From NCBI RefSeq assembly GCF_003751225.1, contig NZ_RJKE01000001.1, positions 2,666,001-2,730,000 of the forward strand: a stretch of 64,000 nucleotides of DNA, given 5' to 3'. This document shows positions 34,044 through 50,983 of the stretch, one piece after another (positions within the stretch are counted from its first letter, which is position 1; every line of letters starts with the position of its first letter). The notes below the pieces were generated by a model. That model had not been told where the DNA came from and ran no database searches. It saw only the letters and a program-made list of their open reading frames with translations. The translations under genes and the position numbers were made by a program. The stretch comes from Actinocorallia herbida. GTDB taxonomy: Bacteria > Actinomycetota > Actinomycetes > Streptosporangiales > Streptosporangiaceae.

Positions 34044-34045
34044 AG

Positions 34046-36126: not shown

Positions 36127-36172
36127 CATTGGATTCATGGCGCGGTGCGCGCCGGAGAAAGGCGGTGGCCAC

Positions 36173-37006
36173 GTGGCCGACTCGGCGGCAGAGCCTGAGC
36201 TGCTCTGGGAACTCGGCGCGGACGGCGTCGCCTGGCTGACCCTCAACCGGCCCAAGGCGGGCAACTCCATCAGCGGGGCGCAGCGCGAGGAGATCATCGC
36301 CCGGCTCAGCGCGGCGAGCGGTGACGCCCGGGTGCGCGCGATCGTGCTCACCGGCGCGGGCACCAGGCACTTCTGCACCGGCGCGGACCTCTCCGGCGCC
36401 GCGGCCCCCGCCGCGGACCGCCCCGAGGGCCTGCCGGACCAGCCCGCGGGCTCGATCACCCGGACGATCGCGGGTGGCGCCCAGCGGCTGATCTCGGCCG
36501 TGCTCGACTGCGACAAGCCCGTCATCGCCGCGGTCAACGGCACCGCGGCCGGGATCGGCTGCCACCTCGCCTACGCCTGCGACCTCGTCCTGGCGGCCGA
36601 CAACGCCAAGTTCATCGAGCTGTTCGTGCGGCGCGGCCTCGTCGTGGACGGCGGCGGCGCCTACCTGTTGACGCGCCTCGTCGGCCCGCAGCGCGCCAAG
36701 GAGCTGATCTTCTTCGGCGACGATCTGCCCGCCGCCGACGCGCACCGGCTCGGCCTCGTCAACCGGATCACGCCCGCCGGTGAACTGGCCGAGACCGCCG
36801 CCGAATGGGCCGCCCGCCTCGCGGCCGGGCCCACCGTCGCGCTCGGCCTCGGCAAGCGCCTCGTCAACCGGGCGCTCGACGCGGACAGGGCGACCGCGTT
36901 CGGCGAGGAGGCCATGTCCGTCGAGGTCAACATGAGCAGTGAGGACGGACAGGAGGGCCTGCGCGCCTTCCTGGAGCGCCGGCAGCCGCACTTCCGCGGC
37001 TGGTAG
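36173..37006 (+). CDS. Enoyl-CoA hydratase/isomerase family protein
   Basis: A 277-residue crotonase: VAWLTLNRPKAGNSISGAQR, AIVLTGAGTRHFCTGADLSG (first oxyanion loop), AAVNGTAAGIGCHLAYACDL (second), then KFIELFVRRGLVVDGGGAYL with an Asp in the second catalytic position and the C-terminal helix LGLGKRLVNRALD. The start is taken at GTG 36173 with GAAAGGCGG upstream; the ATG at 36137 lies close to the promoter island. It begins a co-directional run with the acyl-CoA dehydrogenases that follow 42 bases later. Confidence 0.92.
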   Translation: MADSAAEPELLWELGADGVAWLTLNRPKAGNSISGAQREEIIARLSAASGDARVRAIVLTGAGTRHFCTGADLSGAAAPAADRPEGLPDQPAGSITRTIAGGAQRLISAVLDCDKPVIAAVNGTAAGIGCHLAYACDLVLAADNAKFIELFVRRGLVVDGGGAYLLTRLVGPQRAKELIFFGDDLPAADAHRLGLVNRITPAGELAETAAEWAARLAAGPTVALGLGKRLVNRALDADRATAFGEEAMSVEVNMSSEDGQEGLRAFLERRQPHFRGW

Positions 37007-37048
37007 GCACGTTCTAGAGTCGGCACCCCCCACCCCCAGGAGCCTCGC

Positions 37049-38236
37049 GTGGACCTGCGCCTCACCCCTGCGGAAGCGGCCTTCCGGGATCGTTTGCGGT
37101 CCTGGCTGGACGCGACCCTTCCGACCCTGCCCCCCAAGCCCGACCGTGATGACTGGCCCGCGCGACGTGCCTACGACACCGCGTGGCAGCGGCTGCTGTT
37201 CGACGCGGGTTACGCGGGCGTGGACTGGCCCTCCGGACACGGCGGCCTCGGGGCGTCGCCCACCGAGCAGCTGATCTTCCTGGAGGAGACGGCGAAGGCA
37301 CGCGCCCCGTATGTGGGTGCGAACTTCGTGGGGCTGCTGCACGCCGGGCCGACCCTGATCGTGGAGGGGACGGAGGAGCAGCGGGCGGCGCATCTGAAGG
37401 GCATCCTGCGTGGTGACGAGGTGTGGTGCCAGGGCTTCTCCGAGCCGGATGCGGGCTCGGACCTGGCCTCGCTGCGCACGGTCGCGGTCCGCGAGGGTGA
37501 GGAGTACGTGATCAACGGCCGCAAGGTGTGGACCTCGCACGCCGAGGTCGCCGACTACTGCGAACTGCTCGTGCGGACCGATCCGGACGCGCCCCGGCAC
37601 AAGGGCATCACCTGGCTGATCCTGCCGATGGACGCCCCCGGCGTCACCGTCCGGCCGCTGCGCACCGCGGTCGGCAGCAGCGAGTTCAGCGAGCTGATCC
37701 TGGACGACGTGCGGGTCCCCGTCGCCAACCGGGTCGGCGCGGAGAACGACGGCTGGCGGGTCGCCATGGTGACGTTCTCGTTCGAGCGCGGCACCGCCTT
37801 CATCTCCGACGTGGTCGAGTCGCGCAACCTGCTGGCCGAGACCGTCGCGACGGCCCGCGCCACGCCCGCGCCGGGCGGTGGCACCCTGTGGGACGACGGG
37901 GCGCTGCGCCGTGACGTCGGCGTGCTGGCCGCCGAGGTGTCCGGCCTGTGGTCGCTCATCCGCAAGAACGTCTCCGAGGCGTCGGCCGGGATGATCCCGG
38001 TGCAGGGCGCGTCGGTCTTCAAGCTGAAGTTCACCGAGAACCGCCAGCGCATCGGCGATCTGGCCGCGCATGTGCTCGGCCGGGCGTCGCTGGCGATGAG
38101 CGGGCCGGGCGGCCACGTCGTGGAGGACCGGGTGAACACGCTCGCGTTCACGATCGCCGCGGGCACGTCGCAGATCCAGAAGAACATCCTCGCCGAGCGC
38201 GTCCTCGGCCTGCCCAAGGAGCCCCGATGGACCTGA
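37049..38236 (+). CDS. Acyl-CoA dehydrogenase, larger subunit of a heteromeric pair
   Basis: A 395-residue FAD-dependent acyl-CoA dehydrogenase. It shows DAGYAGVDWPSGHGGLG, the FAD/substrate signature CQGFSEPDAGSDLASL, INGRKVWTSHAEVADYC and the C-terminal GTSQIQKNILAERVLGLPKE. The usual catalytic Glu before GTSQ (YEGTSQ) is Ala here, as in alpha2-beta2 FadE/ChsE-type enzymes of steroid degradation in which two different subunits build one active site. The next gene overlaps by ten bases and supplies the probable partner. Expected reaction: alpha,beta-dehydrogenation of a steroid-type or branched acyl-CoA. Confidence 0.92.
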   Translation: MDLRLTPAEAAFRDRLRSWLDATLPTLPPKPDRDDWPARRAYDTAWQRLLFDAGYAGVDWPSGHGGLGASPTEQLIFLEETAKARAPYVGANFVGLLHAGPTLIVEGTEEQRAAHLKGILRGDEVWCQGFSEPDAGSDLASLRTVAVREGEEYVINGRKVWTSHAEVADYCELLVRTDPDAPRHKGITWLILPMDAPGVTVRPLRTAVGSSEFSELILDDVRVPVANRVGAENDGWRVAMVTFSFERGTAFISDVVESRNLLAETVATARATPAPGGGTLWDDGALRRDVGVLAAEVSGLWSLIRKNVSEASAGMIPVQGASVFKLKFTENRQRIGDLAAHVLGRASLAMSGPGGHVVEDRVNTLAFTIAAGTSQIQKNILAERVLGLPKEPRWT

Positions 38237-39201
38237 TGCCCTCGGCCGACCAGAAGGACCTGCGCGCCGGGCTGCGCGCATGGCTCGGCGACGCCTGGGA
38301 CGCCGAGCGCCTGCGCGCCGCCGCCGCCGTGCCCGCGCCGCCCTTCGACCGGAAGGCGTGGAAGGCGCTCGCCGACCTCGGCGTCCTCGGCCTGACCCTT
38401 CCGGAGGACGAGGGGGGCATGGGCCTGGGGCTCGCCGAAGCCGTCCTGGTCTTCGAGGAACTCGGCCGCGCGCTCGTGCCGGGCCCTCTTGTCGGGACCC
38501 TCCTCGCCGGGGGCCTCGTCCCCGGCGCGGCCGACGGCGACGCGATCGTCTCCGTCCTCGACACCGCGGAGCCCGCCCGGGTCCTGGAGCACCCCGAGGC
38601 GGCCACCGACGTCCTGATCCTGGACGACGCGGGGGTCTTCCTCCTCGCGCCCGCGGACGTCGCAGGGCGGCCCGCGGCCCACCCGCTCGACCCGCTGACG
38701 CCCGTCGCCCCCGCGAAGGTCGTCCTCGAAGGAGCCCGCCCGATCGGTGACGCCGCCGACGCCGCCCGGCTGCGCAGGACCGGCCGGATCCTCACCGCGG
38801 CCCTCCAGGTCGGCGTGGCCCAGGGCGCGCTGGACCTGGCCGTCCGGTATGCGGGGGAGCGGATCCAGTTCGACCGGGTGATCGGCTCGTTCCAGTCGGT
38901 CAAGCACCTGCTCGCCGAGGCGCTCGTGCGGGTCGACCTGGCCCGTCCGGCCGTGCTGGTCGCCGCCCTGACCGTCGACGATCCGGGCTCCGGCGACCCG
39001 GCGGAGGCCGCCGCGACCGCGAAACTGCTGGCCGACGCCGCCGCATCGGGAAACGGGCGTACCGGCGTCCAGGTCCACGGGGGCATGGGGTTCACTTGGG
39101 AGGTCCTGGCGCACCTGTACGTCAAGCGCGCTTGGGTGCAGGAGACCGCGTTCGGGACGGCCGCCGCGCTCGCCGAAGAACTGGCGGCCGGGATCGCGTG
39201 A
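38227..39201 (+). CDS. Acyl-CoA dehydrogenase, smaller subunit of a heteromeric pair
   Basis: A 324-residue, shortened acyl-CoA dehydrogenase-like protein: LMPSADQKDLRAGLRAWLGD, KALADLGVLGLTLPEDEGGM, then a reduced middle beta domain, AVRYAGERIQFDRVIGSFQS and GVQVHGGMGFTWEVLAHLYV. The middle domain lacks the standard FAD-binding SEP-x-AGSD signature, consistent with a partner subunit. Starts ten bases inside the preceding gene, behind AAGGAG, so stoichiometric synthesis is likely. Together they resemble ChsE-type or FadE pairs. Confidence 0.9.
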   Translation: MDLMPSADQKDLRAGLRAWLGDAWDAERLRAAAAVPAPPFDRKAWKALADLGVLGLTLPEDEGGMGLGLAEAVLVFEELGRALVPGPLVGTLLAGGLVPGAADGDAIVSVLDTAEPARVLEHPEAATDVLILDDAGVFLLAPADVAGRPAAHPLDPLTPVAPAKVVLEGARPIGDAADAARLRRTGRILTAALQVGVAQGALDLAVRYAGERIQFDRVIGSFQSVKHLLAEALVRVDLARPAVLVAALTVDDPGSGDPAEAAATAKLLADAAASGNGRTGVQVHGGMGFTWEVLAHLYVKRAWVQETAFGTAAALAEELAAGIA

Positions 39202-39209
39202 GGAGCGAG

Positions 39210-40403
39210 ATGAGCAGCAGACTGGCCCGGACCGAGGGGCTGACGGAGCAGCAGCGGGAGATTCTGGCCGCGGTGCGGGAGTTCACCGAGCGCGAGATCA
39301 TGCCGGTGGCGACGGAGCTGGAGCACGCGGACGAGTATCCGGAGAAGATCGTCGCGGGGATGCGGGAGCTGGGGATCTTCGGGTTGATGATCCCGGAGGA
39401 GTACGGCGGCCTCGGCGAGTCGCTGCTGACGTATGCGCTGGCGGTGGAGGAGATCGCGCGCGGGTGGATGAGCGTGTCGGGCATCATCAACACGCACTTC
39501 ATCGTGTCGCACCTGGTGTTGAAGCACGGGACCGAGGAGCAGAAGCGGAACTATCTGCCGCGTCTGGCCGCGGGTGAGTTGCGGGGTGCGTTCTCGATGT
39601 CGGAGCCGCACTGCGGGTCGGACGTGTCGGCGATCAAGACCAGGGCCGTGCGCGACGGCGACGAGTACGTGATCACGGGCCAGAAGTACTGGCTGACCAA
39701 CGGCGGCACCTCCAGCCTCGTCGCCGTTCTCGTCGTGACCGACGAGGGTGCGGACTCGGTCTACCGGAACATGACGACCTTCCTCGTCGAGAAGACCCCC
39801 GGTTTCGGTGAGGTCGCGCCCGGTATGACGATCCCGGGCAAGATCGACAAGATGGGCTACAAGGGCGTCGACACGACAGAGCTGGTCTTCGACGGCTTCC
39901 GGATCGGCGCCGACCAGGTCCTCGGTGGGAAGAACGGGCGCGGTTTCCACCAGATGATGGACGGTGTCGAGGTCGGCCGCGTGAACGTTGCGGCGCGTGC
40001 GTGCGGGATGGGCAGGCGGGCGTTCGAGCTGGCGATCGATTACGCGCAGCAGCGTGAGACGTTCGGCAAGCCGATCGCGGAGCACCAGGCGATCCAGTTC
40101 AAGCTGGCGGAGATGGCGGTGAAGGTCGAGGCGGCGCACCAGATGATGGTGATGGCCGCGCGCCGCAAGGACGGCGGTGAGCGCAACGACCTGGAGGCGG
40201 GGATGGCCAAGTACCTCGCGGGTGAGTACTGCAAGGAGGTCGTGGAGGACTCCTTCCGCATCCACGGCGGTTTCGCGTATTCGAAGGAGACCGAGATCGA
40301 GCGGCTGTACCGGGAGGCGCCGATGCTGCTGATCGGTGAGGGCACCGCCGAGGTCCAGAAGATGATCATCGGCCGCCGCCTCCTGGAGGAGTACCGCCGA
40401 TGA
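39210..40403 (+). CDS. Acyl-CoA dehydrogenase (classical)
   Basis: A 397-residue canonical acyl-CoA dehydrogenase: ELGIFGLMIPEEYGGLGESL, FSMSEPHCGSDVSAIKTRAV, YKGVDTTELVFDGFRI, AVKVEAAHQMMVMAARRKDG, and the catalytic Glu in MLLIGEGTAEVQKMIIGRRL. It probably works as a homotetramer on short, branched or cyclic acyl-CoAs. ATG at 39210 follows GAGGAGCGAG. It is nine bases after the heteromeric pair, so one operon (36173-40403) can carry hydration and two dehydrogenation activities. Its last 38 bases overlap the end of the convergent ligase gene. Confidence 0.94.
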   Translation: MSSRLARTEGLTEQQREILAAVREFTEREIMPVATELEHADEYPEKIVAGMRELGIFGLMIPEEYGGLGESLLTYALAVEEIARGWMSVSGIINTHFIVSHLVLKHGTEEQKRNYLPRLAAGELRGAFSMSEPHCGSDVSAIKTRAVRDGDEYVITGQKYWLTNGGTSSLVAVLVVTDEGADSVYRNMTTFLVEKTPGFGEVAPGMTIPGKIDKMGYKGVDTTELVFDGFRIGADQVLGGKNGRGFHQMMDGVEVGRVNVAARACGMGRRAFELAIDYAQQRETFGKPIAEHQAIQFKLAEMAVKVEAAHQMMVMAARRKDGGERNDLEAGMAKYLAGEYCKEVVEDSFRIHGGFAYSKETEIERLYREAPMLLIGEGTAEVQKMIIGRRLLEEYRR

Positions 40404-41886
40404 GGCCGGCCGCGCGCCGCCGCAGCTCGGTGACGTCCACCTTGAAGGTGGCGTTCACCGGGAGGTCCGGGACGAACACCACGGCGTCCGGGCACTTGTA
40501 GTCGGCGATCCGCGCGCGGCACCACTCCTTCAGCGCGCCCTCGCTCAGCGCGGGGTCCGCGGCGACGACGAAGGCGACGCCGACCTCGCCGATGACGGGT
40601 GCGGGCGCTCCGACGACCGCCACGCGGTCCACCCCAGGGTGGGCCGCGAGCGCCGCCTCCACCTCCGAGGGGTAGACGTTGTAGCCGCCCCGGATGTACG
40701 CGTCGTCCGCGCGGCCGACGATCGCGAGGTTGCCTTCGCCGTCGAGCGTGCCGAGGTCGCTGGAGGCCAGCCAGCCGTCCTGGCCGATGGCCTCCGCGGT
40801 CTTGGCGGCGTCCCGCCAGTAGCCGCGCATCGCGGCCCGGGAGCGCAGATGGACCCTGCCGACCTCCCCGGTCGGCAGCGCCTCCCCGTCCGCGCCGCGC
40901 ACCTGCACCTCCGCGCCGCCCAGCGCCCGTCCGACGCTCCTGGCGACGAGTTCGGCCGGGTCGTCCGGCGAGGTGCCGAACGCCAGGGGGACCTCCGTGC
41001 TCGCGTACCGGATGACGACCGGGCAGGGCAGCCGCTCCCGCAGGCGCCGCACCAGCTCGGGGGAGACCCGGCTCGCGCCCGTCGCGACAAGACGCAGCGC
41101 CGAGAGGTCGGCGGATTCGAGCTCCGGAAGGGCGACCAGCTTCTCCCATTGCGTCGGCACGCCCTGCCCGAGCGTCACCCGCTCGCGTTGCAGCGTCTCC
41201 AGCATGTCCGCGGCCTGCCAGACGGGCTCGGTGAGGATCAGCGCGGAGCGGTGCGCGAGCTGGTCGTACAGGCGGGTCACATAGCCGGAATGGGCGAACG
41301 GGATCGGGAACAGCTTCCGGTCATAGGGGACGCTGAGCGGGCCGAGGTGGCCGCCGATGAACCGGAGCGTCCGGTGGTCGAACCAGGCGCCCTTGGGCAG
41401 GCCGGTCGTGCCCGTCGTCCAGACGATGACGGCGGGATCGGTGCCGCCCGCGGTGTGCACGGGGCCTTCACCCGAGCCGTCGAGGGGGGTGCGGGCGGTG
41501 TCGAGCACGGGGCCTTCCGGGACGCGGGCCGGCTCGTCGGTGACGGTGAGGACCGGCCGGGAGGCGGCGAGGATGTGCGCGGTCTCGGTCGGCCCGAGCC
41601 GTGGGTTCACCGCCGAGACGACCGCGCCGAGCCGCAGCGCCGCGAGGTACCAGACGGCGAACGCCCGCCCGGACGGCAGCAGCAGCGCCACGATGTCGCC
41701 GGCCCGGACCCGGCGTGCTGCCAGGTGCCCGGCCGCCGCGCCCGCCTCGGCCCACCAGGCCCGGTACGTCAGCGTGTCCGCGCCCTGGACGAGCGCGGCG
41801 AGGTCGGGTTCCGCGGACAGGACCGCGGTGAACAGGTCGCCGATCCCGGCGGCCGCGGCGTGGGGACCTGCGGAGGGTGCGCTCAA
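40366..41886 (-). CDS. Acyl-CoA ligase (AMP-forming)
   Basis: A 506-residue ANL ligase: P-loop VWTTGTTGLPKGAW (155-168), RYASTEVPLAFG, SSDLGTLDGEGNLAIVGRADDAY, IRGGYNVYPSEVE, and the A10 motif LPVNATFKVDVTELRR with catalytic Lys retained. The TTG start at 41886 has GGAG five bases upstream, and the longer frame to 41973 is unsupported. The Gly-rich C-terminal tail extends 38 bases into the end of the convergent acyl-CoA dehydrogenase gene. It lies 115 bases downstream of the Ltp-like operon on the same strand and could supply its CoA substrates. Confidence 0.9.
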   Translation of the reverse strand: MSAPSAGPHAAAAGIGDLFTAVLSAEPDLAALVQGADTLTYRAWWAEAGAAAGHLAARRVRAGDIVALLLPSGRAFAVWYLAALRLGAVVSAVNPRLGPTETAHILAASRPVLTVTDEPARVPEGPVLDTARTPLDGSGEGPVHTAGGTDPAVIVWTTGTTGLPKGAWFDHRTLRFIGGHLGPLSVPYDRKLFPIPFAHSGYVTRLYDQLAHRSALILTEPVWQAADMLETLQRERVTLGQGVPTQWEKLVALPELESADLSALRLVATGASRVSPELVRRLRERLPCPVVIRYASTEVPLAFGTSPDDPAELVARSVGRALGGAEVQVRGADGEALPTGEVGRVHLRSRAAMRGYWRDAAKTAEAIGQDGWLASSDLGTLDGEGNLAIVGRADDAYIRGGYNVYPSEVEAALAAHPGVDRVAVVGAPAPVIGEVGVAFVVAADPALSEGALKEWCRARIADYKCPDAVVFVPDLPVNATFKVDVTELRRRAAGLIGGTPPGGGGR

Positions 41887-42001
41887 GTCAACTCCAGACG
41901 GCGCCGCGCGCCGCCGCTCGTCCGTGGGGTGGGTGGGGTGGTGAGAACGGACGGAACCGGTCGAACATCGCACCGCGCGGCGCCCGGGGTCAAGGGGCGC
42001 G

Positions 42002-43156
42002 TCAGGTGAAGTCCGGGTCGGGGTCCGCGCTGACGATCCACATGGCGAAGTACTGGGCGGCCCCTCCGTAGGCGTGCCCGAGCGCGACCTTCGCGCCGTC
42101 GACCTGGTGCTCCCCGGCCGTCCCGCGGACCTGCCGCGCCGCCTCCAGGCAGCGGACGAGCCCGGACGCGCCGATCGGGTTGGACGACAGCACGCCGCCC
42201 GACGGGTTCACCGGGAAGGAGCCGCCGAGCTCCGTCGCGCCGCTGTCGGTGAGCTTCCAGCCCTCGCCGGGGGAGGCCAGCAGATGGCCTTCCAGCCACA
42301 TCGGCTCGTACCAGGAGAACGGCACGTACAGCTCGGCGCAGTCGATCTGCCGCAGCGGATCGGTGATCCCGGCCTTGCGGTACAGGGCTTCCGCGCAGTC
42401 CACCCCGGCCTGCGGCCGCACCGGGTCACGGCCGGGGAAGGAGGCGAACTCGCTGCGCTTGGCGTGCGCGACGACCCAGGCGGGACGGGAAGGCCCCTTG
42501 CGCGCGGCGTCCTCGGAGGCCAGGACGACGGCGGCGGCCCCGTCGGACGACGGGCAGGACTCCAGGAAGTGCAGCGGTTCCCACAGCATGGGCGACTCGC
42601 GCACCTTGTCCTCGGAGATGTCCGGGATGCGGAGGTGGGCGTGCGGGTTGCGCAGCGCGTTCCGCCGGTCCTTCACCGCGACCTTCCAGCCGATGTGCTC
42701 GGGTGCGCCGGACCGTCGGATGTAGCTGCGGATCCAGGGCGCGAACGTGCCTCCCGCGCCCTGCCCGCCGGACTTGCCGCCCGACAGCGCCCAGGTCGCG
42801 TTCCCCTCGGACTGCTTCTCGTAGGCGACGACCAGCACCCGCTCGTACCGGCCGGACTCGATCAGCGTCGCGCCGCTGATCGCGGTGGCCGCCCCGACGG
42901 ACCCCGCGGTGTGCACCCGGTGGATCGGCTTGCCGACGGCCCCGAGCGCGTCGGCGAGCGTCAGCTCCGGCATCATGACGCCTTCGAGGAGGTCGGGCGC
43001 CTTGCCGAGGACGACGGCGTCGATGTCGGCGAAGGTGAGCCCGGCGTCTTCCAACGCCTCCAGGGCCGCCCAACGTACGAGGCCCTCCAAACTGACCTCA
43101 AGGCGGCGGCGGTAATCGGTCTGCCCGATCCCGACGACGGCGCAGCGGCGGCCCAT
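42002..43156 (-). CDS. ltp3: Thiolase-fold protein without catalytic Cys (Ltp3-like)
   Basis: A 384-residue thiolase-superfamily protein: RCAVVGIGQTDYRRRLEVSL, ALEALEDAGLTFADIDAVVL, then RVHTAGSVGAATAISG with Gly85 where thiolases have Cys, DCAELYVPFSWYEPMW with Tyr in place of the HDCF histidine, and NPSGGVLSSNPIGASGL with Asn instead of the GHP histidine. All three thiolase catalytic residues are therefore replaced. Gene order and length match Ltp3 of the mycobacterial/rhodococcal DUF35-Ltp4-Ltp3 module, implicated as aldol lyases in C24-branched sterol side-chain cleavage; orthology is inferred. Start ATG overlaps the previous stop by one base. Confidence 0.85.
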   Translation of the reverse strand: MGRRCAVVGIGQTDYRRRLEVSLEGLVRWAALEALEDAGLTFADIDAVVLGKAPDLLEGVMMPELTLADALGAVGKPIHRVHTAGSVGAATAISGATLIESGRYERVLVVAYEKQSEGNATWALSGGKSGGQGAGGTFAPWIRSYIRRSGAPEHIGWKVAVKDRRNALRNPHAHLRIPDISEDKVRESPMLWEPLHFLESCPSSDGAAAVVLASEDAARKGPSRPAWVVAHAKRSEFASFPGRDPVRPQAGVDCAEALYRKAGITDPLRQIDCAELYVPFSWYEPMWLEGHLLASPGEGWKLTDSGATELGGSFPVNPSGGVLSSNPIGASGLVRCLEAARQVRGTAGEHQVDGAKVALGHAYGGAAQYFAMWIVSADPDPDFT

Positions 43157-44181
43157 CAGCGGTCTCCTTCCAGGACGGCGACGAGGTTCTGCTGAAGGCA
43201 CGGTCCGCTGGACGCGTGCGCGAGGCCGCGCCCGGCCTCTCCGGCCGCGATCCGCCGGGCCACCTCGACGACCCGGGCCAGGCCCGTCGCCATGACGGGA
43301 TGGCCCGCGAGCGGCCCGCCCGAGGGGTTCACGGCGGTCTCCGCCTTCAGCCCGAGCGCGTTGCGCAGGATCGTCTCCTCGGGGGTGTGCACGACCATCA
43401 GCTCCGCGAGGTCGAGCGGCCCGGAGTCCGCGCCCGCGCCCGCCGCGGCGGCCCGGGTGGACGGCGAGTCGGTGAGGTCGCGCAGGCCCGGCAGCCGGGA
43501 CTCGATCCGGTGGTCCATGCCGGTGATCCACACGGGGGTGTCGGTCAGTTCCCTGACCCGGTCGCCCGCGACGAGCACGAGCGCGGCGGCCCCGTCGCCG
43601 GGCACGGCGACGTCGTGGGCGCGCAGAGGGTCGCTGACGTACGGGGCGGCCAGGAGGGCGTCCAGGGATCCCGCGCCGGAGCGCGCGGCGGTGGCCGCGA
43701 AGTCCGCCTCGGTCGCAAGGCCCGCGTCCAGGAGCGCGCGCGCTTGGATCCCGGCGAGAGAGACGGGGTCCAGGCCGAGCGGGGCCATCGTGTAAGGGTC
43801 GGTCTGGAGGGCGAAGACCCTGCGCTGGTCCCCGGACGAGGACTTGCCCGAGCCGATGACGAGCGCGGTGTCGACGTCGCCGACCTGGAGCCTGAGCCAT
43901 GCCTCGAACAGCGCCCAGGCGCCGTCCATCTCGACGTGGCTCTCGTAGACGGGCGGCCAGGCGCCGACCCCGTCGAGGTTCATGACGAACGAGAAGGGCG
44001 TGCCGCCGAGGTAGTCGCAGCTTCCCGCGATGGTGAACGCCAGCTCCTCGCGGGTCAGGCCCGTCGCGGCGAGCAGGTCGTTGACGCAGGACATGACGAG
44101 CCCGGCTTCGGGCCCGGCGTAGGCGGAGTGGACGGGGGTGGCTGCGGTCGCGACGATCGCGACCGGGCGCTGGCTGGTCAA
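43156..44181 (-). CDS. ltp4: Thiolase-fold protein without catalytic Cys (Ltp4-like)
   Basis: A 341-residue thiolase-superfamily protein with PVAIVATAATPVHSAYAGPE, VYESHVEMDGAWALFEAWLR, LVIGSGKSSSGDQRRVFALQ and NPSGGPLAGHPVMATGLARV. The Cys loop reads VEMDGAW, with Gly87 at the nucleophile position, but His is kept in VVHTPEET and in AGHP. It therefore cannot do classical thiolysis and likely forms a pair with the Ltp3-like protein. The TTG start overlaps the stop of the DUF35 gene (TTGA), indicating coupled translation. Confidence 0.85.
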   Translation of the reverse strand: MTSQRPVAIVATAATPVHSAYAGPEAGLVMSCVNDLLAATGLTREELAFTIAGSCDYLGGTPFSFVMNLDGVGAWPPVYESHVEMDGAWALFEAWLRLQVGDVDTALVIGSGKSSSGDQRRVFALQTDPYTMAPLGLDPVSLAGIQARALLDAGLATEADFAATAARSGAGSLDALLAAPYVSDPLRAHDVAVPGDGAAALVLVAGDRVRELTDTPVWITGMDHRIESRLPGLRDLTDSPSTRAAAAGAGADSGPLDLAELMVVHTPEETILRNALGLKAETAVNPSGGPLAGHPVMATGLARVVEVARRIAAGEAGRGLAHASSGPCLQQNLVAVLEGDR

Positions 44182-45191
44182 AACGCGTGCTCCTCGAGTG
44201 CGCGGGCGTCGGCGTCGGGCTCGCCGGTGGGCTCCCAGCGGGCGAAGACGCCCTCCCAGCCGCCGGTGGACCGGTTGTCGAACCCGGAGAGGTCCCTTTC
44301 GTCCACGGGCCGCCAGACCGCGCGCAGGCGCAGCCCGACGCGGAACTCCGCGAGCGGGATGGTCCGGATGTCGACGCCGGTGATGGGCGAGTCGCTGCCG
44401 TCGAGCAGGACCGAGGCGCGGATGTACGGCTCGGTCTCCTTCTGCCCGTGGTAGGCGACCGGCGTGATCTCGGTGAAGGAGCTGACCGCCCCCGCCGCCG
44501 CGACGACCACGTCCTCGGGCTCGCCCATCGGGACCCGCTCCAGCTGGTCGTAGCCGCGGCCCGGCACGTACACCTTGCCGCTGACCGGGGAGCGCTGCCC
44601 GACGACCTCGCCGCGCAGCAGCCCGGCCAGGAACCGCTCCCGGTGCGGGTACAGCGGCTCGGCGTACTCCAGCGAGATGAGGTGGGTCGTCATCGTGACG
44701 GGCTCGGCGCCCTCCGCCGGCGTGACGGGCTCGCCGGGTCCATCCGCCTCGGGGACGAAGTGGAAGTCGGTCACCGCCCCGACGCGCTCGGGGGCGAAGC
44801 GCGCGATCACCCGCATGCCCGTGGTCATCCGCTCGGGGCTCCCGGCGTCGACGGCGTGCGCGAACGGGGTGTCCGCGCCGTCGAGGAGGATGAGCGCGAA
44901 GCCGAAGGGACGGTCGAACGGGTGGCTCGCCGTCGGCTGCCGGACCCAGGTCCACGCGGTGACGGTCCCGCCGGGTCCGACCTCGACGAGCTCTGCGTCG
45001 GCGGGCGCCCCGGTGGCCGGATCGTATTCGGGGGGCGGCACGACGGTCCGTCCGCCCACCCGTCCGGCCAGCAGGCGGCCGTCGCGGGCCCCGGTGAGGA
45101 ACGCGCCGATCGCACCTCCCGTCGTGCGCGTGTAGGGGAACTCCAGGACCGTCCGTACGGCGCCGGGCATCGACGCGGGTTGTCGCAGCAC
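44178..45191 (-). CDS. Tandem DUF35 OB-fold acyl-CoA-binding protein
   Basis: A 337-residue protein with two DUF35-type units: residues ~12-155 (GAIGAFLTGARDGRLLAGRV, VPPPEYDPATG, VTAWTWVRQPTASHPFDRPF) and ~170-330 (AGLLRGEVVGQRSPVSGKVY, VPGRGYDQLERVP, VSSFTEITPVAYHGQ). The zinc-ribbon cysteines are absent in both. DUF35 proteins bind acyl-CoA and activate thiolase-like aldolases such as Ltp2-ChsH2. GTG at 45191 is chosen because AAGGAG sits five bases upstream; ATG 45206 has none. First gene of the Ltp4/Ltp3 operon; GAGAC and GTCTC repeats lie at 45208-45221. Confidence 0.85.
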   Translation of the reverse strand: MLRQPASMPGAVRTVLEFPYTRTTGGAIGAFLTGARDGRLLAGRVGGRTVVPPPEYDPATGAPADAELVEVGPGGTVTAWTWVRQPTASHPFDRPFGFALILLDGADTPFAHAVDAGSPERMTTGMRVIARFAPERVGAVTDFHFVPEADGPGEPVTPAEGAEPVTMTTHLISLEYAEPLYPHRERFLAGLLRGEVVGQRSPVSGKVYVPGRGYDQLERVPMGEPEDVVVAAAGAVSSFTEITPVAYHGQKETEPYIRASVLLDGSDSPITGVDIRTIPLAEFRVGLRLRAVWRPVDERDLSGFDNRSTGGWEGVFARWEPTGEPDADARALEEHAF

Positions 45192-45207: not shown

Positions 45208-45245
45208 GAGACCGCAGTCTCATCTATTAAAATATATTGAATACG
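45208..45245. promoter_or_regulatory. Operator-like repeat and AT-rich island upstream of the Ltp operon
   Basis: GAGAC (45208-45212) and GTCTC (45217-45221) flank CGCA, followed by an AT-rich patch at 45222-45245. The centre ACCGCAGT is also the centre of the repeat at 23047-23058, so the two regions might share a regulator; this is suggestive only. Confidence 0.35.
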
Positions 45246-45317
45246 AGATGTGGCACCAGGGGAGCGCGCGGAAAGTCCGCCCCGGTTCGGGTCGGCCCGG
45301 GTAGAGTCGCGGTCTCT

Positions 45318-46415
45318 ATGGACGTGCTGACGACGCGGGCGCTGAACCGGGCCCTCCTCGACCGCCAGCTCCTGCTGCGCCGGGCCGAGCTGCCCGCCGA
45401 GGCCGCGCTCGCCCATCTGCTGGGGCTCCAGTCCCAGGCGGTCGATCCGCCCTACCTCGGACTGTGGACGCGGCTCGAGGGCTTCGCCGCCGACGACCTC
45501 TCCGCGCTGCTCGTCGCGCGCAAGGCGGTCCGGATCGCGCTCATGCGCTCCACCCTGCACCTGGTGACCGCGGCGGACTGCCTCGAACTGCGGGCGCTCC
45601 TCGCCGAGTCGCTCGCGCGCACCGTCAAGGGGCAGTTCGGAGGGCGGCTGCCCGGCGTCGACCTCGCCGAGCTGGCCGCGGAGGGCGCCCGGCTGGCGGG
45701 GGAGACCGCGCTGACCTTCGCCGAACTCGGCAAGCTGCTGGGCCGGCGCTGGCCCGACCACGACCCGAACGCGCTGGCCCAGACCGTCCGGAACCTCGTC
45801 CCGCTCGTGCAGGTCCCGCCGCGCGGGCTGTGGGGGCGCAGCGGGCCCGCCGCGCACCTGACCGCGGAGGCGTGGCTCGGCCGCGGCCTCGACCCGGCGC
45901 CCTCGCCGGACGGCCACGTGCTGCGCTACCTCGCCGCGTTCGGCCCGGCGAGCGTCAAGGACATGCAGAAGTGGTCCGGCCTGACCCGGCTCAAGGCCGC
46001 CTTCACCCGCCTCGGCCCCCGGCTGCGCCGCTACCGCGCGGAGAGCGGCGAGGAGCTGTACGACCTCGCCGACCTGGCGCCGCCCGACGCCGAAGCCCCG
46101 GCCCCCGTGCGCTTCCTGCCCGAGTTCGACAACATCCTGCTCTCCCATGCCGACCGCACCCGGATCATGCCCGACCACCACCGCGCCCGCGTCTTCACCG
46201 TCAACGGGATCATCCGCGCGTCGATCCTCGTCGACGGGTTCGTCGCGGGCCTGTGGCGGGTCGAGCGCTCCGGCGCCACGGCGACCCTCGCGATCGAGCC
46301 CTTCGGCGCGCTCGACGCCGAGGCCCGCACCGCGCTGTTGGAGGAGGGCGCACGGCTGCTCGCCTTCCTCGCCCCCGAGGCGGCCCACGACCTGCGGATC
46401 CTCCCCGCCGGCTGA
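45318..46415 (+). CDS. Winged-helix DNA-binding/AlkZ-like DNA glycosylase family protein
   Basis: A 365-residue HTH_42 (PF06224) protein. It begins DVLTTRALNRALLDRQLLLR and carries the Q-x-Q signature Gln38-Ser-Gln40 (LLGLQSQAVDPPYLGLW), the catalytic feature of AlkZ-type glycosylases that excise bulky or crosslinked alkyl bases, then MRSTLHLVTAADCLELRALL and a C-terminal FLPEFDNILLSHADRTRI. In actinomycetes some members give self-resistance to DNA-alkylating natural products, but most are housekeeping and uncharacterised. Divergent from the Ltp operon; ATG 45318. Confidence 0.85.
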   Translation: MDVLTTRALNRALLDRQLLLRRAELPAEAALAHLLGLQSQAVDPPYLGLWTRLEGFAADDLSALLVARKAVRIALMRSTLHLVTAADCLELRALLAESLARTVKGQFGGRLPGVDLAELAAEGARLAGETALTFAELGKLLGRRWPDHDPNALAQTVRNLVPLVQVPPRGLWGRSGPAAHLTAEAWLGRGLDPAPSPDGHVLRYLAAFGPASVKDMQKWSGLTRLKAAFTRLGPRLRRYRAESGEELYDLADLAPPDAEAPAPVRFLPEFDNILLSHADRTRIMPDHHRARVFTVNGIIRASILVDGFVAGLWRVERSGATATLAIEPFGALDAEARTALLEEGARLLAFLAPEAAHDLRILPAG

Positions 46416-46463: not shown

Positions 46464-47624
46464 TCAGCGCAGGGACCGGAAGAACTCCCGCAGATCGGCG
46501 ACGAGCGGGCCCGGCGTCTCCAGGGCCGCGAAGTGCCCGCCGCGCGGGAACTCCGTCCAGCGGACGACCCGGTGGACGGCCTCGGCGAACGGGCGGATCG
46601 AGAGGTCCGTCGGGAAGACCGCGACCGCCGTCGGGGTGGTGCCCGGGGCCTTGAGCGCCCACATCGCCGGGTCATGGAACCGCTCGAAGTAGGTGTGCGC
46701 GGCCGGGCCCGCCGTGCCGGTGAGCCAGTAGACGGCGGCGTTGGCGAGGATCCGGTCGCGCGGGACCGCGTCCTCGGGAAGTTCGGCGGCCGGGTCCGTC
46801 CACTCCTTGAAGCGCTCGACGATCCATGCGAGCCACCCGGCGGGGCTGTCGTGCAGCAGCGCCGCGAGCGTCTGCGGGCGGGTGCCCTGGAGCTGCATGT
46901 AGGCGCCCTGGTCCTCCTGCCAGGTCTTCATCCGGGCGAGCCTCCCGCGCTCGTCCTCGGTGAGCGCGGCCATGACCGCGGGGTCTCCGGTGGGGAAGGT
47001 GACGAGCGCGTTCACGTGCACCCCGCGCACCGCGCCGGGCGCGGCGCGGGCGACGAGCGGGGCGAGGAACGCGCCGACGTCGCCTCCCTGCACCCCGTAG
47101 GAGTCGTAGCCGAGCCGGGCCATCAGCTCGGCGAGCGCGGCGGCGGCCCTGCCGTCGGTCCAGCCGGGGCCGGGCGGCGGGCCGGAGAACCCGTAGCCGG
47201 GCAGCGAGGGGATGACGAGGTGGAACGCGTCCCCGGCCGCGCCGCCGTGCGCGACGGGGTCGGTGAGCGGGCCGACGAGGTCGAGGAAGTCCACGACCGA
47301 GCAGGGCCAGCCGTGCAGCAGGAGCAGCGGCGTCGCGTCCGGCTCGGCGGAGCGGACGTGCAGGAAGTGCAGGCGGGTGCCGTCGACCGACGCGGTGAAC
47401 TGCGGCAGCGCGTTCAGCTCGGCCTCCTGCTCGCGCCAGTCGAAGCCGTCGGCCCAGTACTCCGCGAGGCCGCGCAGGTAGGAGGTCGGCACGCCACGTT
47501 CCCAGCCGGTGCCCGGCACGTCGGGAGCCCAGCGGGTGCGGCGCAGCCGCTCGGCGAGATCGTCGAGGTCGCGCTGCGGGACGTCGAGGTGGAAAGGGGT
47601 GAAGAACCCGTCTTCGTGTGGCAT
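46464..47624 (-). CDS. Epoxide hydrolase (alpha/beta-hydrolase with EHN domain)
   Basis: A 386-residue microsomal-type epoxide hydrolase: an EHN N-terminal domain ([20 protein letters not shown], residues 10-29), oxyanion motif [13 protein letters not shown] (HGWP at 104-107), the nucleophile Asp182 in [14 protein letters not shown], and the late catalytic His in [11 protein letters not shown]. It opens epoxides to diols, typically on terpenoid or aromatic substrates. Start ATG at 47624 has only a weak binding site. Divergent from the WYL regulator gene 64 bases away, so regulation by it is likely. Confidence 0.93.
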
Positions 47625-47687
47625 GCCGGGAAAGCTAGTCGCGATAGGTGCCAGATCCCGGCACTGATTCCACGTCATCATGTGGGC

Positions 47688-48686
47688 ATGGCCGACACCG
47701 CGAGCCGTCTGCTCCGCCTGCTGTCCCTCCTTCAGTCGCGCGCCGACTGGACCGGCACCCGGCTGGCCGAACGGCTCGGCATAGGGCTGCGGACCCTGCG
47801 CCGCGACATCCAGCGGCTGCGCGACCTCGGCTACCCGGTCGAGGCGACCCCGGGCGCCGCGGGCGGCTACCGGCTCGGCTCGGGCGCCTCCCTCCCGCCG
47901 CTCCTGCTCGACGACGAAGAGGCGGTCGCCGCCGCGATCAGCCTCCGCACGGCCGCCACGGGCTCGGTCTCGGGCGTCGAGGAGGCGGCCTTGCGCGCCC
48001 TCACGAAGCTGCGCCAGGTCCTCCCCGCCCGCCTGCGCCACCGGGTGACGGCCTTCGAGGCGGCCGCCCTCCCCCTCGGCGCGGTCCCGGCCGACGCCGT
48101 CTCCGCCGACCTCCTGGCCGAACTCGCGGCGGCCTGCCGGGATCGCGTAAGGATCCGGTTCACCTATCGAATGGGCAGGGCGGCGACGGTACGCGCGGGC
48201 GAAGAGGCGACGGAACGGGACGTGGAGCCGTACCGGCTCGCGCACACCGCGCGGCGCTGGTACCTCGTCGCGTGGGACACCGGACGGGCCGACTGGCGGA
48301 CCTTTCGGGCGGATCGGATCGAGCCCGGCCCGCCGCGGCGCGGCCCCCGCTTCACCGCCCGCCCTCTGCCGCGCGAGGACCCGGCGGCCTACGTCACCGA
48401 CGCGATCAGCGCCGCGCCCTACCCCTTCCGGGCGAGCGTCCTCTTCCACGCCCCCCTCGTCGAGATGGCCCGGCTCACCTCCCCCTCGGCGGGCCGCCTG
48501 GAAGCCCTGGACGACGCCACCTGCGTCTTCCACGCCGGCTCGACCTCCCTCACCGAGTTCGCCGTCCACGTCGCGGCCAAGGGCGTCGACTTCGAGGTCC
48601 TCGACCCTCCCGATCTGGTCCCCGTCCTCCGCGCCCTCGCCGCCCGCCTCACCCGCGCCGCCGACGCGGCCCCCGGCGCGTCTTGA
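47688..48686 (+). CDS. YafY/WYL-domain transcriptional regulator
   Basis: A 332-residue DeoR-like regulator: winged helix at 5-60 ([52 protein letters not shown]) and a WYL domain (about 135-225) with [20 protein letters not shown], followed by the WCX C-terminal extension. WYL proteins sense ligands or nucleic acids and frequently control adjacent stress or catabolic genes. ATG 47688. Likely regulates the divergent epoxide hydrolase. Confidence 0.92.
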
Positions 48687-48779
48687 CAGTGCGCGCGTGG
48701 GCGAAGGAAGCTACGGGCGGGATAAATGGAAACGGCTTTTCCCGTAGCGGAACAAGTCGGCGGGTGGGGAGGATGCGGC

Positions 48780-50111
48780 ATGGGTGTGGAGCTGAAGGGG
48801 GCGGGGGGCGGCGGGACGGCTTCCGGCGGCGGAGCGGGCCGGGTGCGGGACGCGGTCGCGGAGGTCGTCGCGGACGTCCGGGAGAACGGGGACGCGGCGG
48901 TGCGGCGGTACTCGGAGAAGTTCGACGGGTGGTCGCCGGAGGCGTTCCGGCTGTCGGCCGAGCGGATCGCGGAGATCGTCGCGACGGTGGAGCCGCAGGT
49001 CATCGAGGACATCACCTTCGTGCAGGCGCAGGTGCGGAGGTTCGCCGAGGCGCAGCGGGCGGCGCTGCACGACGTCGAGATCGAGACGCTGCCCGGGGTG
49101 GTCCTCGGCCACAAGAACGTGCCCATCTCGGCGGCGGGCGCCTACGTGCCCGGCGGGCGGTACCCGCTGGTCGCCTCCGCGCACATGACGGTCGTGACGG
49201 CGAAGGTCGCGGGGGTCGAGCGGGTCGCGGCCTGCACCCCGCCGATCCGCGGCGAGATCCCCAAGGAGACCGTCGCGGCGATGCACCTCGCCGGGGCCGA
49301 CGAGATCTACCTGCTCGGCGGAATCCAGGCCGTCGCGGCGCTCGCGCTCGGCACCGAGACCATCGGCCGGGTCGACCTCATCGCCGGGCCGGGCAACGCC
49401 TACGTCGCGGAAGCCAAGCGGCAGCTCTTCGGCGAGGTCGGCATCGACCTCATCGCGGGCCCCACCGAGATCCTCATCGTCGCCGACGAGACCGCCGACC
49501 CCGTCACGGTCGCGGTGGACCTGCTCAGCCAGGCCGAGCACGGGCCCGACTCGCCGGCCGTGCTCGTCACCACCTCCGAGCGGCTCGGCCGCGAGGTCAT
49601 CGGTCTCGTCGAGCGGATCCTGCCGGGCATGCCGACCAAGGACTACGCGCTGCCCGCGTGGCGGGACCACGGGCAGGTGATCGTCGCCGCCGACCTCGCC
49701 GAGGCGTGGAAGATCGCCGACTCCTTCGCCTCCGAGCACGTCCAGGTGCTGACCGCCGAGCCGCGCCGCGCGCTCACCGAGATGCGGAACTACGGCGCGC
49801 TCTTCCTCGGTGAAGGCACCTGCGTGTCCTACGGCGACAAGGTCATCGGCACCAATCACGTCCTGCCGACGCGGCACGCGGCCCGCTACACCGGCGGCCT
49901 CTGGGTCGGGAAGTACCTCAAGACCGTGACGTACCAGGAGGTGCGCGACCCCGAGACCAGCGCGGAACTCGGGCGGGTGTGCGGCCGGGCCTCCCGCGTC
50001 GAGCTGTTCGAGGGCCACGCCCGCTCCGGCGACATCCGGGCCGCCCGCTACGACGGCACCCCTGCGTGGCTGCGCGAGATCGGGATCGAGCTCCCCGGGA
50101 CGCGGGCGTGA
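48780..50111 (+). CDS. Histidinol-dehydrogenase-family oxidoreductase (HpsN-like)
   Basis: A 443-residue HisD-superfamily NAD-dependent alcohol dehydrogenase. Motifs include YVPGGRYPLVASAHM, LIAGPGNAYVAEAKRQLFG, GPTEILIVAD, the zinc ligands in SQAEHGPDSPAV, the catalytic ASEHVQVLT and a final His in FEGHARSGD. No histidine-biosynthesis neighbours are present; the next genes are an SDR and a D-aminoacylase-type amidohydrolase, so it is probably a paralogue oxidising another primary alcohol in two steps, as sulfopropanediol dehydrogenase HpsN does. ATG 48780 follows GGGGAGG. Its stop overlaps the SDR start (GTGA). Confidence 0.9.
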   Translation: MGVELKGAGGGGTASGGGAGRVRDAVAEVVADVRENGDAAVRRYSEKFDGWSPEAFRLSAERIAEIVATVEPQVIEDITFVQAQVRRFAEAQRAALHDVEIETLPGVVLGHKNVPISAAGAYVPGGRYPLVASAHMTVVTAKVAGVERVAACTPPIRGEIPKETVAAMHLAGADEIYLLGGIQAVAALALGTETIGRVDLIAGPGNAYVAEAKRQLFGEVGIDLIAGPTEILIVADETADPVTVAVDLLSQAEHGPDSPAVLVTTSERLGREVIGLVERILPGMPTKDYALPAWRDHGQVIVAADLAEAWKIADSFASEHVQVLTAEPRRALTEMRNYGALFLGEGTCVSYGDKVIGTNHVLPTRHAARYTGGLWVGKYLKTVTYQEVRDPETSAELGRVCGRASRVELFEGHARSGDIRAARYDGTPAWLREIGIELPGTRA

Positions 50112-50881
50112 TCCCGGCTCTCACGGGCCGTACGGCGCTCGTGACGGGCGGCGGTAGCGGCCTCGGCCGGGTCATGGCAAGGCATCTCGCGCAGGCGGGC
50201 TGCCGGGTCGTCGCGGTAGGCCGGGATCCGGGCAAACTCGCGGCCGTCGAGGCGGAGTTCACCGTGCTGGGCCTCGGGCTCCGCACGGCCTCCTGCGACG
50301 TGTCCGACTTCGCGGCCGTCGAGGCGCTGCGCGCGGAACTCGCCGACGAGGACGTCTCGATCCTCGTCAACAACGCCGGGATCGGCGGGCCCGTCGCGCC
50401 GATCACCGAGATCCTGCCCGCGGAGTGGGACGAGGTGTTCGGCGCGAACGTCCGCAGCATCTACCTGATGTGCCGGGCGTTCCTTCCCCCGATGTACGCG
50501 CGCGGCGACGGCGACGTGGTGAACATCGCGTCCGTCACCGGCAAGCGCCCGCTCATCCGCCGCACGCCTTACGCGGCGAGCAAGATGGCGGTGCTCGGTC
50601 TGACCCGGACCCTGGCGTTCGAGGCGGGGCCGCAGGGCGTCCGTGTCAACGCGCTGTCGCCCGGTCCGGTGCGCGGCGAGCGGATGGCCCGGAACTTCCG
50701 GTTCGAGGCCGCCGCGACGGGCGGGACGATCGAGGAGGCCGAGCGCGCGTTCGTCTCCCGGGCCGCCCTGGACCGGCTGGTGGAGGAGGACGAGGTCGGC
50801 GCGGGCCTCGTCGCGATGCTCCAGATCCCCGGCATGTGCGGGGCCGACATCGACCTGTCGGCGGGCATGATCGCGCCCTGA
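50108..50881 (+). CDS. Short-chain dehydrogenase/reductase
   Basis: A 257-residue classical SDR: cofactor loop TALVTGGGSGLGRVMARHLA (TGxxxGxG at about 14-21), NNAGIGGPV, the catalytic Ser in NIASVTGKRP, YAASK (Tyr, Lys) and SPGPVRGERMA. Arg after the second strand (AVGRDPGKL) suggests NADP(H). The GTG start overlaps the stop of the HisD-like gene, so the two are coupled and may oxidise/reduce successive intermediates. Substrate unknown. Confidence 0.94.
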   Translation: MIPALTGRTALVTGGGSGLGRVMARHLAQAGCRVVAVGRDPGKLAAVEAEFTVLGLGLRTASCDVSDFAAVEALRAELADEDVSILVNNAGIGGPVAPITEILPAEWDEVFGANVRSIYLMCRAFLPPMYARGDGDVVNIASVTGKRPLIRRTPYAASKMAVLGLTRTLAFEAGPQGVRVNALSPGPVRGERMARNFRFEAAATGGTIEEAERAFVSRAALDRLVEEDEVGAGLVAMLQIPGMCGADIDLSAGMIAP

Positions 50882-50899
50882 ACCGGATAACCGAATATC

Positions 50900-50905
50900 G
50901 TATAC
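50900..50905. promoter_or_regulatory. GTATAC core in an AT-rich island
   Basis: The stretch 50884-50910 between the SDR stop and the D-aminoacylase-like start is AT-rich and centres on GTATAC followed by AACTT. It may be an internal promoter or GntR-type operator, comparable to the site at 36112. Confidence 0.3.
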
Positions 50906-50983
50906 AACTTGCCCGTGATGTCCGAGGATGGGGGTGCCGGATGCGTCCGGCCTCCCCACTCCCACCCCTCGGAGGACAGCTTC

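Follow-up and report, generated by a model that had tools for sequence, protein, structure and literature searches.

What chemistry can be carried out by two thiolase-fold proteins that are encoded side by side when neither has the nucleophilic cysteine of a thiolase? This question is raised by an operon of Actinocorallia herbida that lies within a 64,000-nucleotide stretch of its one-contig genome (assembly GCF_003751225.1, contig NZ_RJKE01000001.1, forward-strand positions 2,666,001 to 2,730,000; hereafter the window). At window positions 42002-45191, on the minus strand, three overlapping genes encode, in order, a protein with two DUF35 domains, an Ltp4-like and an Ltp3-like thiolase-fold protein. 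The best explanation, to which we assign a probability of about 0.6, is that the three products make up a heteromeric retro-aldolase of the Ltp3-Ltp4-DUF35 kind. The kind itself is already known; new are the divergent clade to which the window copy belongs, the loss of its zinc site, a third type of active site, and the division of DUF35 between two genes at some loci.

The operon and the conservation of its module

The reading frames confirm the coordinates, strand and gene order given in the original prediction, together with both gene junctions. The DUF35 gene overlaps the Ltp4-like gene by four nucleotides (TTGA) and the latter overlaps the Ltp3-like gene by one (TGATG), an arrangement in which translational coupling of the three genes would be expected; all three are open up to their stop codons. 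The predicted composition is likewise upheld, with two PF01796 stretches in the DUF35 protein and alignments that lack the nucleophilic cysteine in both thiolase-fold proteins. The Ltp4-like protein passes the cut-off of NCBIfam family NF005924 (PRK07937, 'lipid-transfer protein'; 431.8 bits, cut-off 419), and the Ltp3-like protein that of NF006180 (PRK08313, 'thiolase domain-containing protein'; 583.2 bits, cut-off 514). We take PRK07937 to be Ltp4 and PRK08313 to be Ltp3, with which the gene order of Tsukamurella tyrosinosolvens agrees, and Rv3521 is presumably the DUF35 protein of the mycobacterial module. A table in PMC6429209 lists the mycobacterial genes as Rv3521, Rv3522 (ltp4) and Rv3523 (ltp3). 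Where the original prediction had matched both order and lengths to the DUF35-Ltp4-Ltp3 module, the order stands (in Tsukamurella and in Rv3521-Rv3523), as do the two family assignments, but the DUF35 protein of the window is longer than that of Tsukamurella (337 versus 309 residues).

Conservation was assessed in 113 loci, comprising 29 from a sample of the order, 80 from public genomes, the window locus, and the common-type copies of this genome, of its congener G144 and of genome G113; some species may be counted twice between the order-sample and public loci. The public loci are the best 80 of at least 587 confirmed relatives found by scanning public genome contigs. All three parts are present in the same order in 108 of the 113 loci, 94 with one DUF35 gene and 14 with two; four of the five incomplete loci lie at contig ends, and the remaining one (L134) has a partial Ltp4 match only. 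The association of the parts is therefore not due to chance. Ltp4 alignments contain 110 rows, and trees contain 110 loci, the three loci without an Ltp4 of 300 residues being left out.

Active sites and assembly of the proposed complex

In an alignment with SCP2-type thiolases, the nucleophilic cysteine and both catalytic histidines are missing from every Ltp3-type sequence. The window protein has Gly85 in the cysteine loop, Tyr277 in place of the HDCF histidine and Asn326 in place of the GHP histidine, which bears out the glycine, the tyrosine and the loss of both histidines given in the original prediction. Six positions of Ltp3 (Gly85, Tyr277, Pro279, Phe280, Asn326 and Tyr363) are identical in all 113 loci, and the sole cysteine among its invariant columns, Cys201, lies within CPSSDG, away from the catalytic position. 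The only one of the three SCP2-thiolase residues left in the operon is a GHP histidine in the Ltp4-like protein. There is no conserved cysteine at the nucleophile position of either protein, and thiolase activity is ruled out because the nucleophile is missing.

What the Ltp3-like protein does possess is the combination found in the Ltp2 and Sal aldolases, glycine for the cysteine and tyrosine for the HDCF histidine. As described in PMC12329534, both enzymes have glycine at the cysteine site, and catalysis depends on Tyr302 and Cys304 in CtSal and on Tyr294 and Tyr344 in TcLtp2; Tyr277 occupies, by motif, the position of Tyr294 and Tyr302. To judge from these residues, retro-aldol chemistry is likely. 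The earlier proposal that tyrosines act here as in Ltp2-ChsH2 thus holds for Tyr277 and fails for the second tyrosine, Tyr344, which is Asn326 in the window protein. The Ltp2-ChsH2(DUF35) aldolase of Thermomonospora curvata (6ok1) shares the thiolase fold, both replacements and a DUF35 partner, but has a single kind of thiolase-fold subunit, Tyr344, and YDHF where YVPF stands here. Similarly, the bile-acid aldolase Sal-Shy(DUF35) of Comamonas testosteroni (9myr) has glycine for cysteine, an essential tyrosine and a DUF35 partner, but it differs in Cys304 (Pro279 here), in Gln352 (Asn326 here), in its one kind of thiolase-fold subunit and in a DUF35 domain that forms part of a hydratase.

A tyrosine in a thiolase fold that has lost its cysteine is not unusual in this genome. 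There are 20 other SCP2-thiolase-like paralogues, of which 14 lack the cysteine and have tyrosine for the HDCF histidine and six retain the cysteine, the alignment at the cysteine loop being rough for some of the 20. Single 'dead' tyrosine thiolases are thus common here, and the module is distinctive in pairing two such proteins with two DUF35 domains. The 14 paralogues (among L171-L190) read YDHF, YDCF/YDCY, YDGF, YDSF or YENF at the HDCF motif. In the two YDHF proteins (L176 and L177) and four with YDCF/YDCY, a tyrosine aligns with the second tyrosine site of Ltp2, and the six-member YDGF type fits neither Ltp2 nor Sal. One gene considered as a possible Ltp2, at 8254223-8255347 of the genome, was rejected, as its product retains the cysteine (ACASGA) and reads YDLS.

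The second thiolase-fold protein presents a different picture. The original prediction had placed Gly87 in its cysteine loop, and residue 87 is indeed glycine or alanine across the rows, but the cysteine position is probably Met85, and Gly87 is probably two residues off. This register comes from matching strand, loop and helix in predicted models, the profile alignment showing a gap there; the Ltp4 model is usable (mean predicted local distance difference test score, pLDDT, 80.8). The absence of the cysteine holds in either register. Met262 stands at the HDCF histidine position and the GHP histidine is retained as His294. The HDCF position is variable in 18 window-like rows (M/H/C/T/S) and histidine in 82 of the 92 others; at the GHP position, histidine occurs in 12 of 110 rows, the window included, and common-type rows mostly have asparagine. 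Cys328 is alanine in 10 of the 18 window-like rows and cysteine in 88 of the 92 others. Conservation peaks at residues 49-95 (mean 0.89; whole protein 0.71), a block that we presume to lie at the dimer interface, and the HVEMD loop is invariant. Since the catalytic positions of Ltp4 drift while it continues to accompany Ltp3, it is best read as a partner and not as a second active enzyme; a structural, non-catalytic role is probable.

Clues to assembly come from the 14 loci with split DUF35, in which the first gene best matches the N half and the second the C half of the tandem protein, the second open reading frame (160-198 residues) being located in the gap before Ltp4. CtSal-ShyDUF35 is an alpha-beta-beta-alpha complex in which a dimer is flanked by two DUF35 domains (PMC12329534). 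By analogy, the split genes suggest one DUF35 domain per thiolase-fold subunit, and a four-part complex where the genes are split. That the products of the operon form a heteromeric complex appears likely from their sequences and gene arrangement. Ltp3 and Ltp4 would form a heterodimer in place of the thiolase homodimer, flanked by the two DUF35 domains of a single polypeptide. Ltp3 would be the catalytic subunit, with its Gly85 loop positioned at the substrate hydroxyl and Tyr277 taking the proton from the beta-hydroxyl of a beta-hydroxyacyl-coenzyme A (CoA), whereupon the C-C bond would break to give a ketone or aldehyde and a shorter acyl-CoA. Ltp4 would be mainly a structural partner, and neighbouring genes would provide for acid activation, dehydrogenation and hydration.

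The divergent clade and its neighbourhood

The genome carries a second module at about 8259200-8262329, whose Ltp3, Ltp4 and DUF35 proteins are 67%, 55% and about 40% identical, respectively, to those of the window. Genes for an acyl-CoA synthetase and a hydratase lie next to it, as in T. tyrosinosolvens, where the module is near genes for an AMP-binding protein and a crotonase and, further off, a steroid 3-ketoacyl-CoA thiolase. Against the EchA19 cut-off of 400 bits, the Tsukamurella hydratase passes (428.4), whereas those of the second copy (332.3) and the window (168.3) fail. The second-copy hydratase passes PRK07799 (343.7, cut-off 316), which is the best family of both it and the Tsukamurella hydratase. 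No cut-off among the families listed, which do not include FadD19, is passed by the synthetase of the window, the second copy or Tsukamurella. The second copy is taken to belong to the common type, near the sterol one, and would be expected to act on sterols; its description as a textbook sterol locus is only partly borne out, with a hydratase of the EchA19 group that falls below the cut-off and a synthetase that could not be placed.

The window copy, by comparison, is a divergent paralogue in a fully supported clade. Ltp4 matches (E <= 1e-30) occur in 78 of 150 sampled genomes of the order, with identities of at least 74% in this genome, G144 and G113 only and the next at 59%; in the phylum at large, matches (E <= 1e-50) occur in 37 of 396 genomes, including one more at 67% (G412). 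Of the best 80 public loci, L066-L077 cluster with the window locus. The resulting core clade of 15 loci, window included, has support of 1.0 in the joint tree and is monophyletic with support of 1.0 for each gene alone. Its 12 public loci derive from Acidimicrobiia/Acidimicrobiales or Actinomycetota metagenome-assembled genomes (MAGs; 10 loci), one from Myxococcota and one from a Deltaproteobacteria MAG, assignments in which binning may mislead. The 18 window-like rows did not serve as a clade, since the smallest clade enclosing them has 27 loci, and the 15-locus core was used instead.

The core clade retains Gly85, Tyr277, Pro279 and Asn326 of Ltp3, and the changes lie elsewhere. Among 106 rows aligned over the second DUF35 domain (core loci L067 and L076 being left out as truncated), zinc cysteine C1 is serine in 13 of 13 core rows and cysteine in 88 of 93 others, and C3 is aspartate in 13 of 13 and cysteine in 89 of 93. 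The zinc-type cysteines missing from the window copy are thus usual for the module, though not proven to be required. Furthermore, the loop after beta4 of Ltp3 is four residues shorter in 29 of the 113 loci, namely 15/15 core loci, 12/12 sister loci, L089 and L103. In CtSal, the beta4-alpha4 loop and the DUF35 zinc site shape the steroid pocket, according to PMC12329534, and the short loop would correspond to that loop by the strand order of a poor Ltp3 model. With its active-site residues kept, its zinc cysteines lost and its loop shortened, the window clade probably keeps the retro-aldol chemistry and differs in its acyl pocket, which is the simplest reading. Compared with the Ltp3-Ltp4 sterol module, then, the window module shares gene order, overlapping genes, NCBIfam families and Ltp3 active-site positions, but it has lost the zinc cysteines, has a shorter loop and no adjoining EchA19-type hydratase, and belongs to a separate clade.

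Features of the module and of its surroundings, in window positions
Feature	Position	Strand	Remarks
Tandem DUF35 (double OB-fold) protein	44178-45191	-	337 aa; GTG start behind GGAAGGAG
Ltp4-like thiolase-fold protein	43156-44181	-	341 aa; TTG start; proposed non-catalytic partner
Ltp3-like thiolase-fold protein	42002-43156	-	384 aa; ATG start; proposed catalytic subunit
Ltp3-like Gly85 codon, nucleophilic Cys position	42902-42904	-	SCP2-thiolase alignment; Gly 113/113
Ltp3-like Tyr277 codon (YVPF for HDCF), proposed catalytic base	42326-42328	-	SCP2-thiolase alignment; Tyr 113/113
Ltp3-like Asn326 codon, replaces GHP His (reads NP)	42179-42181	-	Asn 113/113
Ltp4-like Met85 codon, probable Cys position	43927-43929	-	Met 110/110; register from predicted models
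Acyl-CoA synthetase open reading frame, downstream, probable fourth operon gene	40366-41973	-	start codon probably lies inside this frame
Enoyl-CoA hydratase-like gene and three acyl-CoA dehydrogenase-like genes	36137-40403	+	also in G144; could make the beta-hydroxyacyl-CoA substrate

G144 and G113 likewise have the acyl-CoA synthetase gene near the module and on its strand (70.6% and 60.0% identity, respectively), and a protein with a weak, below-cut-off NIPSNAP match is also kept near it (73.4% in G144, 67.3% in G113). An amidohydrolase gene adjoins the module in G144 (81%) and L073 (59%); in the window (48726-52726, plus strand), genes for a HisD-like dehydrogenase, a short-chain dehydrogenase/reductase and an amidohydrolase stand in a row. 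Beside the module lie genes for an AlkZ-like DNA glycosylase and an epoxide hydrolase (45237-46415, plus strand, and 46464-48569, minus strand). Epoxide hydrolase genes also occur near the module in L066, L072 and L075, but this is a weak pathway clue, as full-length homologues number six in the genome and the window's is only second best. By eye, no shared operator was seen upstream of the window, G144 and G113 modules. Elsewhere in the window, at 32637-35236 (plus strand), an HMG-CoA-synthase-like protein (102 bits, cut-off 244) with an in-frame DUF35 stretch lacks, by eye, the cysteine at its usual place, and the thiolase that follows retains ENYCATGSE and HDCF; the pair has the look of a bacterial version of the archaeal thiolase/HMG-CoA synthase/DUF35 set. 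On a Streptomyces clavuligerus plasmid (L169), a module with the same gene order has in its vicinity a terpene synthase family gene and two genes for acyl-CoA synthetases.

Weighing the readings and the substrate

A retro-aldolase of this kind would have precedent, as a review names a 'heteromeric aldol-lyase (Ltp3-Ltp4)' for cleavage of the C24-C25 bond of C24-branched sterol side chains (PMC6678751), and PMC4761994 and PMC8708139 cite Wilbrink 2012 on Ltp3-Ltp4. The original prediction of an undescribed retroaldolase accordingly survives as to function, for which retro-aldol cleavage is the best reading, and not as to 'undescribed'. In the literature searched, which covered few subscription journals, no structure, no purified Ltp3-Ltp4 enzyme and nothing on the window clade was found.

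Several observations weigh against the retro-aldolase as drawn here. The proton donors of the known aldolases, TcLtp2 Tyr344 and CtSal Cys304, are replaced by Asn326 and Pro279 in all 113 loci, and the predicted Ltp3 structure is poor (mean pLDDT 55.8). The division of labour is blurred by the GHP and C-terminal regions of Ltp4, which are also well conserved (0.86 and 0.85), and by the GHP histidine that the window Ltp4 retains, which leaves it a possible share in catalysis. The shorter Ltp3 loop, being present in the sister loci, L089 and L103 as well, predates the core clade and is older than the loss of the zinc cysteines. Of the neighbouring genes, G113 keeps only the synthetase and the NIPSNAP-like gene, and good conservation of the cluster is confined to the congener G144. 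Lastly, in M. neoaurum, ltp3 or ltp4 knockouts are reported still to convert phytosterols to 4-HBC, and only the atf1 knockout stops it (PMC10398937); even for the common type, then, the part played in sterol breakdown is not simple.

Among the alternatives, the closest gives the window module the same substrate class as the 8.26 Mb copy, so that the genome would have two aldolases for C24-branched sterol side chains. Its gene order and its Ltp3 active-site residues are the same, and strong KshA matches (E <= 1e-50) occur in 24 of the 150 genomes of the order sample, of which 22 have the module (Fisher P 1.1e-5, kinship not corrected). However, 56 of the 78 module-bearing genomes are without strong KshA, and the module thus accompanies steroid degradation yet occurs more widely than steroid-ring degradation. 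Strong KshA is absent from the present genome (best 103 bits, against about 300 in G144) and from G113 (best 113.6 bits), and steroid-ring degradation by the host is therefore doubtful. Some KshA_C match is present in 13 of the 16 genomes that carry a window-type Ltp3, and only G144 (1/16) comes near 300 bits, although this bar may be too high for distant groups, whose KshA may score lower. Other markers added little: HsaC (TIGR03213) reaches 295.5 bits here against a cut-off of 366.45 and passes in 1 of 18 genomes, and IpdE2 (NF050027) passes in 0 of 18 and was of no use. A second Ltp3 is present in 12 of the 16 window-type genomes, the other four being MAGs, perhaps incomplete, and two copies with one task would need repeated retention. 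Together with the clade-wise change of zinc cysteines and loop and a nearby hydratase that is not EchA19 (168.3 bits), these points leave a redundant sterol aldolase rather unlikely.

Further alternatives change the chemistry itself. The complex might catalyse bond formation instead of cleavage, or might transfer acyl groups, after the manner of PhlABC or the archaeal thiolase/HMG-CoA synthase/DUF35 complex, in which different thiolase-superfamily proteins are likewise joined with a DUF35-type protein. A structure search with the Ltp4 model matches the archaeal complex, benzoylsuccinyl-CoA thiolase and PhlABC, all of which have DUF35 partners, although it also matches Ltp2 and Sal. PhlABC and the archaeal complexes act by a nucleophilic cysteine, as do acyl transfer and thiolase-type condensation at large, and this residue is absent from the window proteins; the neighbouring genes, for an acyl-CoA synthetase, three acyl-CoA dehydrogenases and a hydratase, also have a degradative look, and a synthetic or transferase role is improbable. 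More remote still is the view that the proteins bind acyl-CoA or are decayed paralogues with no catalysis at all: both are without the thiolase nucleophile and the catalytic positions of Ltp4 drift, but the genes of the window are open to their stops and the active-site positions of Ltp3 are identical across the 113 loci.

As to the substrate of the proposed retro-aldolase, the altered acyl pocket of its clade makes it quite possible that the window copy acts on a different molecule from the C24-branched sterol side chain; the chance that such a side chain is not its substrate falls a little short of even. More tentatively, the core may be a phylum-crossing aldolase clade with a third type of active site (tyrosine as base, proline and asparagine at the donor sites), with the acid possibly supplied by the Ltp4 HVEMD loop across the dimer interface, and with zinc-free DUF35 and short loop suited to beta-hydroxyacyl-CoAs that are not steroids and may be beta-branched or isoprenoid. 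There is demand for steroid aldolases as biocatalysts, and a testable assembly is offered by the division of DUF35 between two genes. The changed-pocket clade, found in genomes that are mostly without strong KshA, provides a route to learning what the module cleaves, and if it is indeed a third-type clade of this sort, sterol side chains would be just one of the targets of a broader lyase module.

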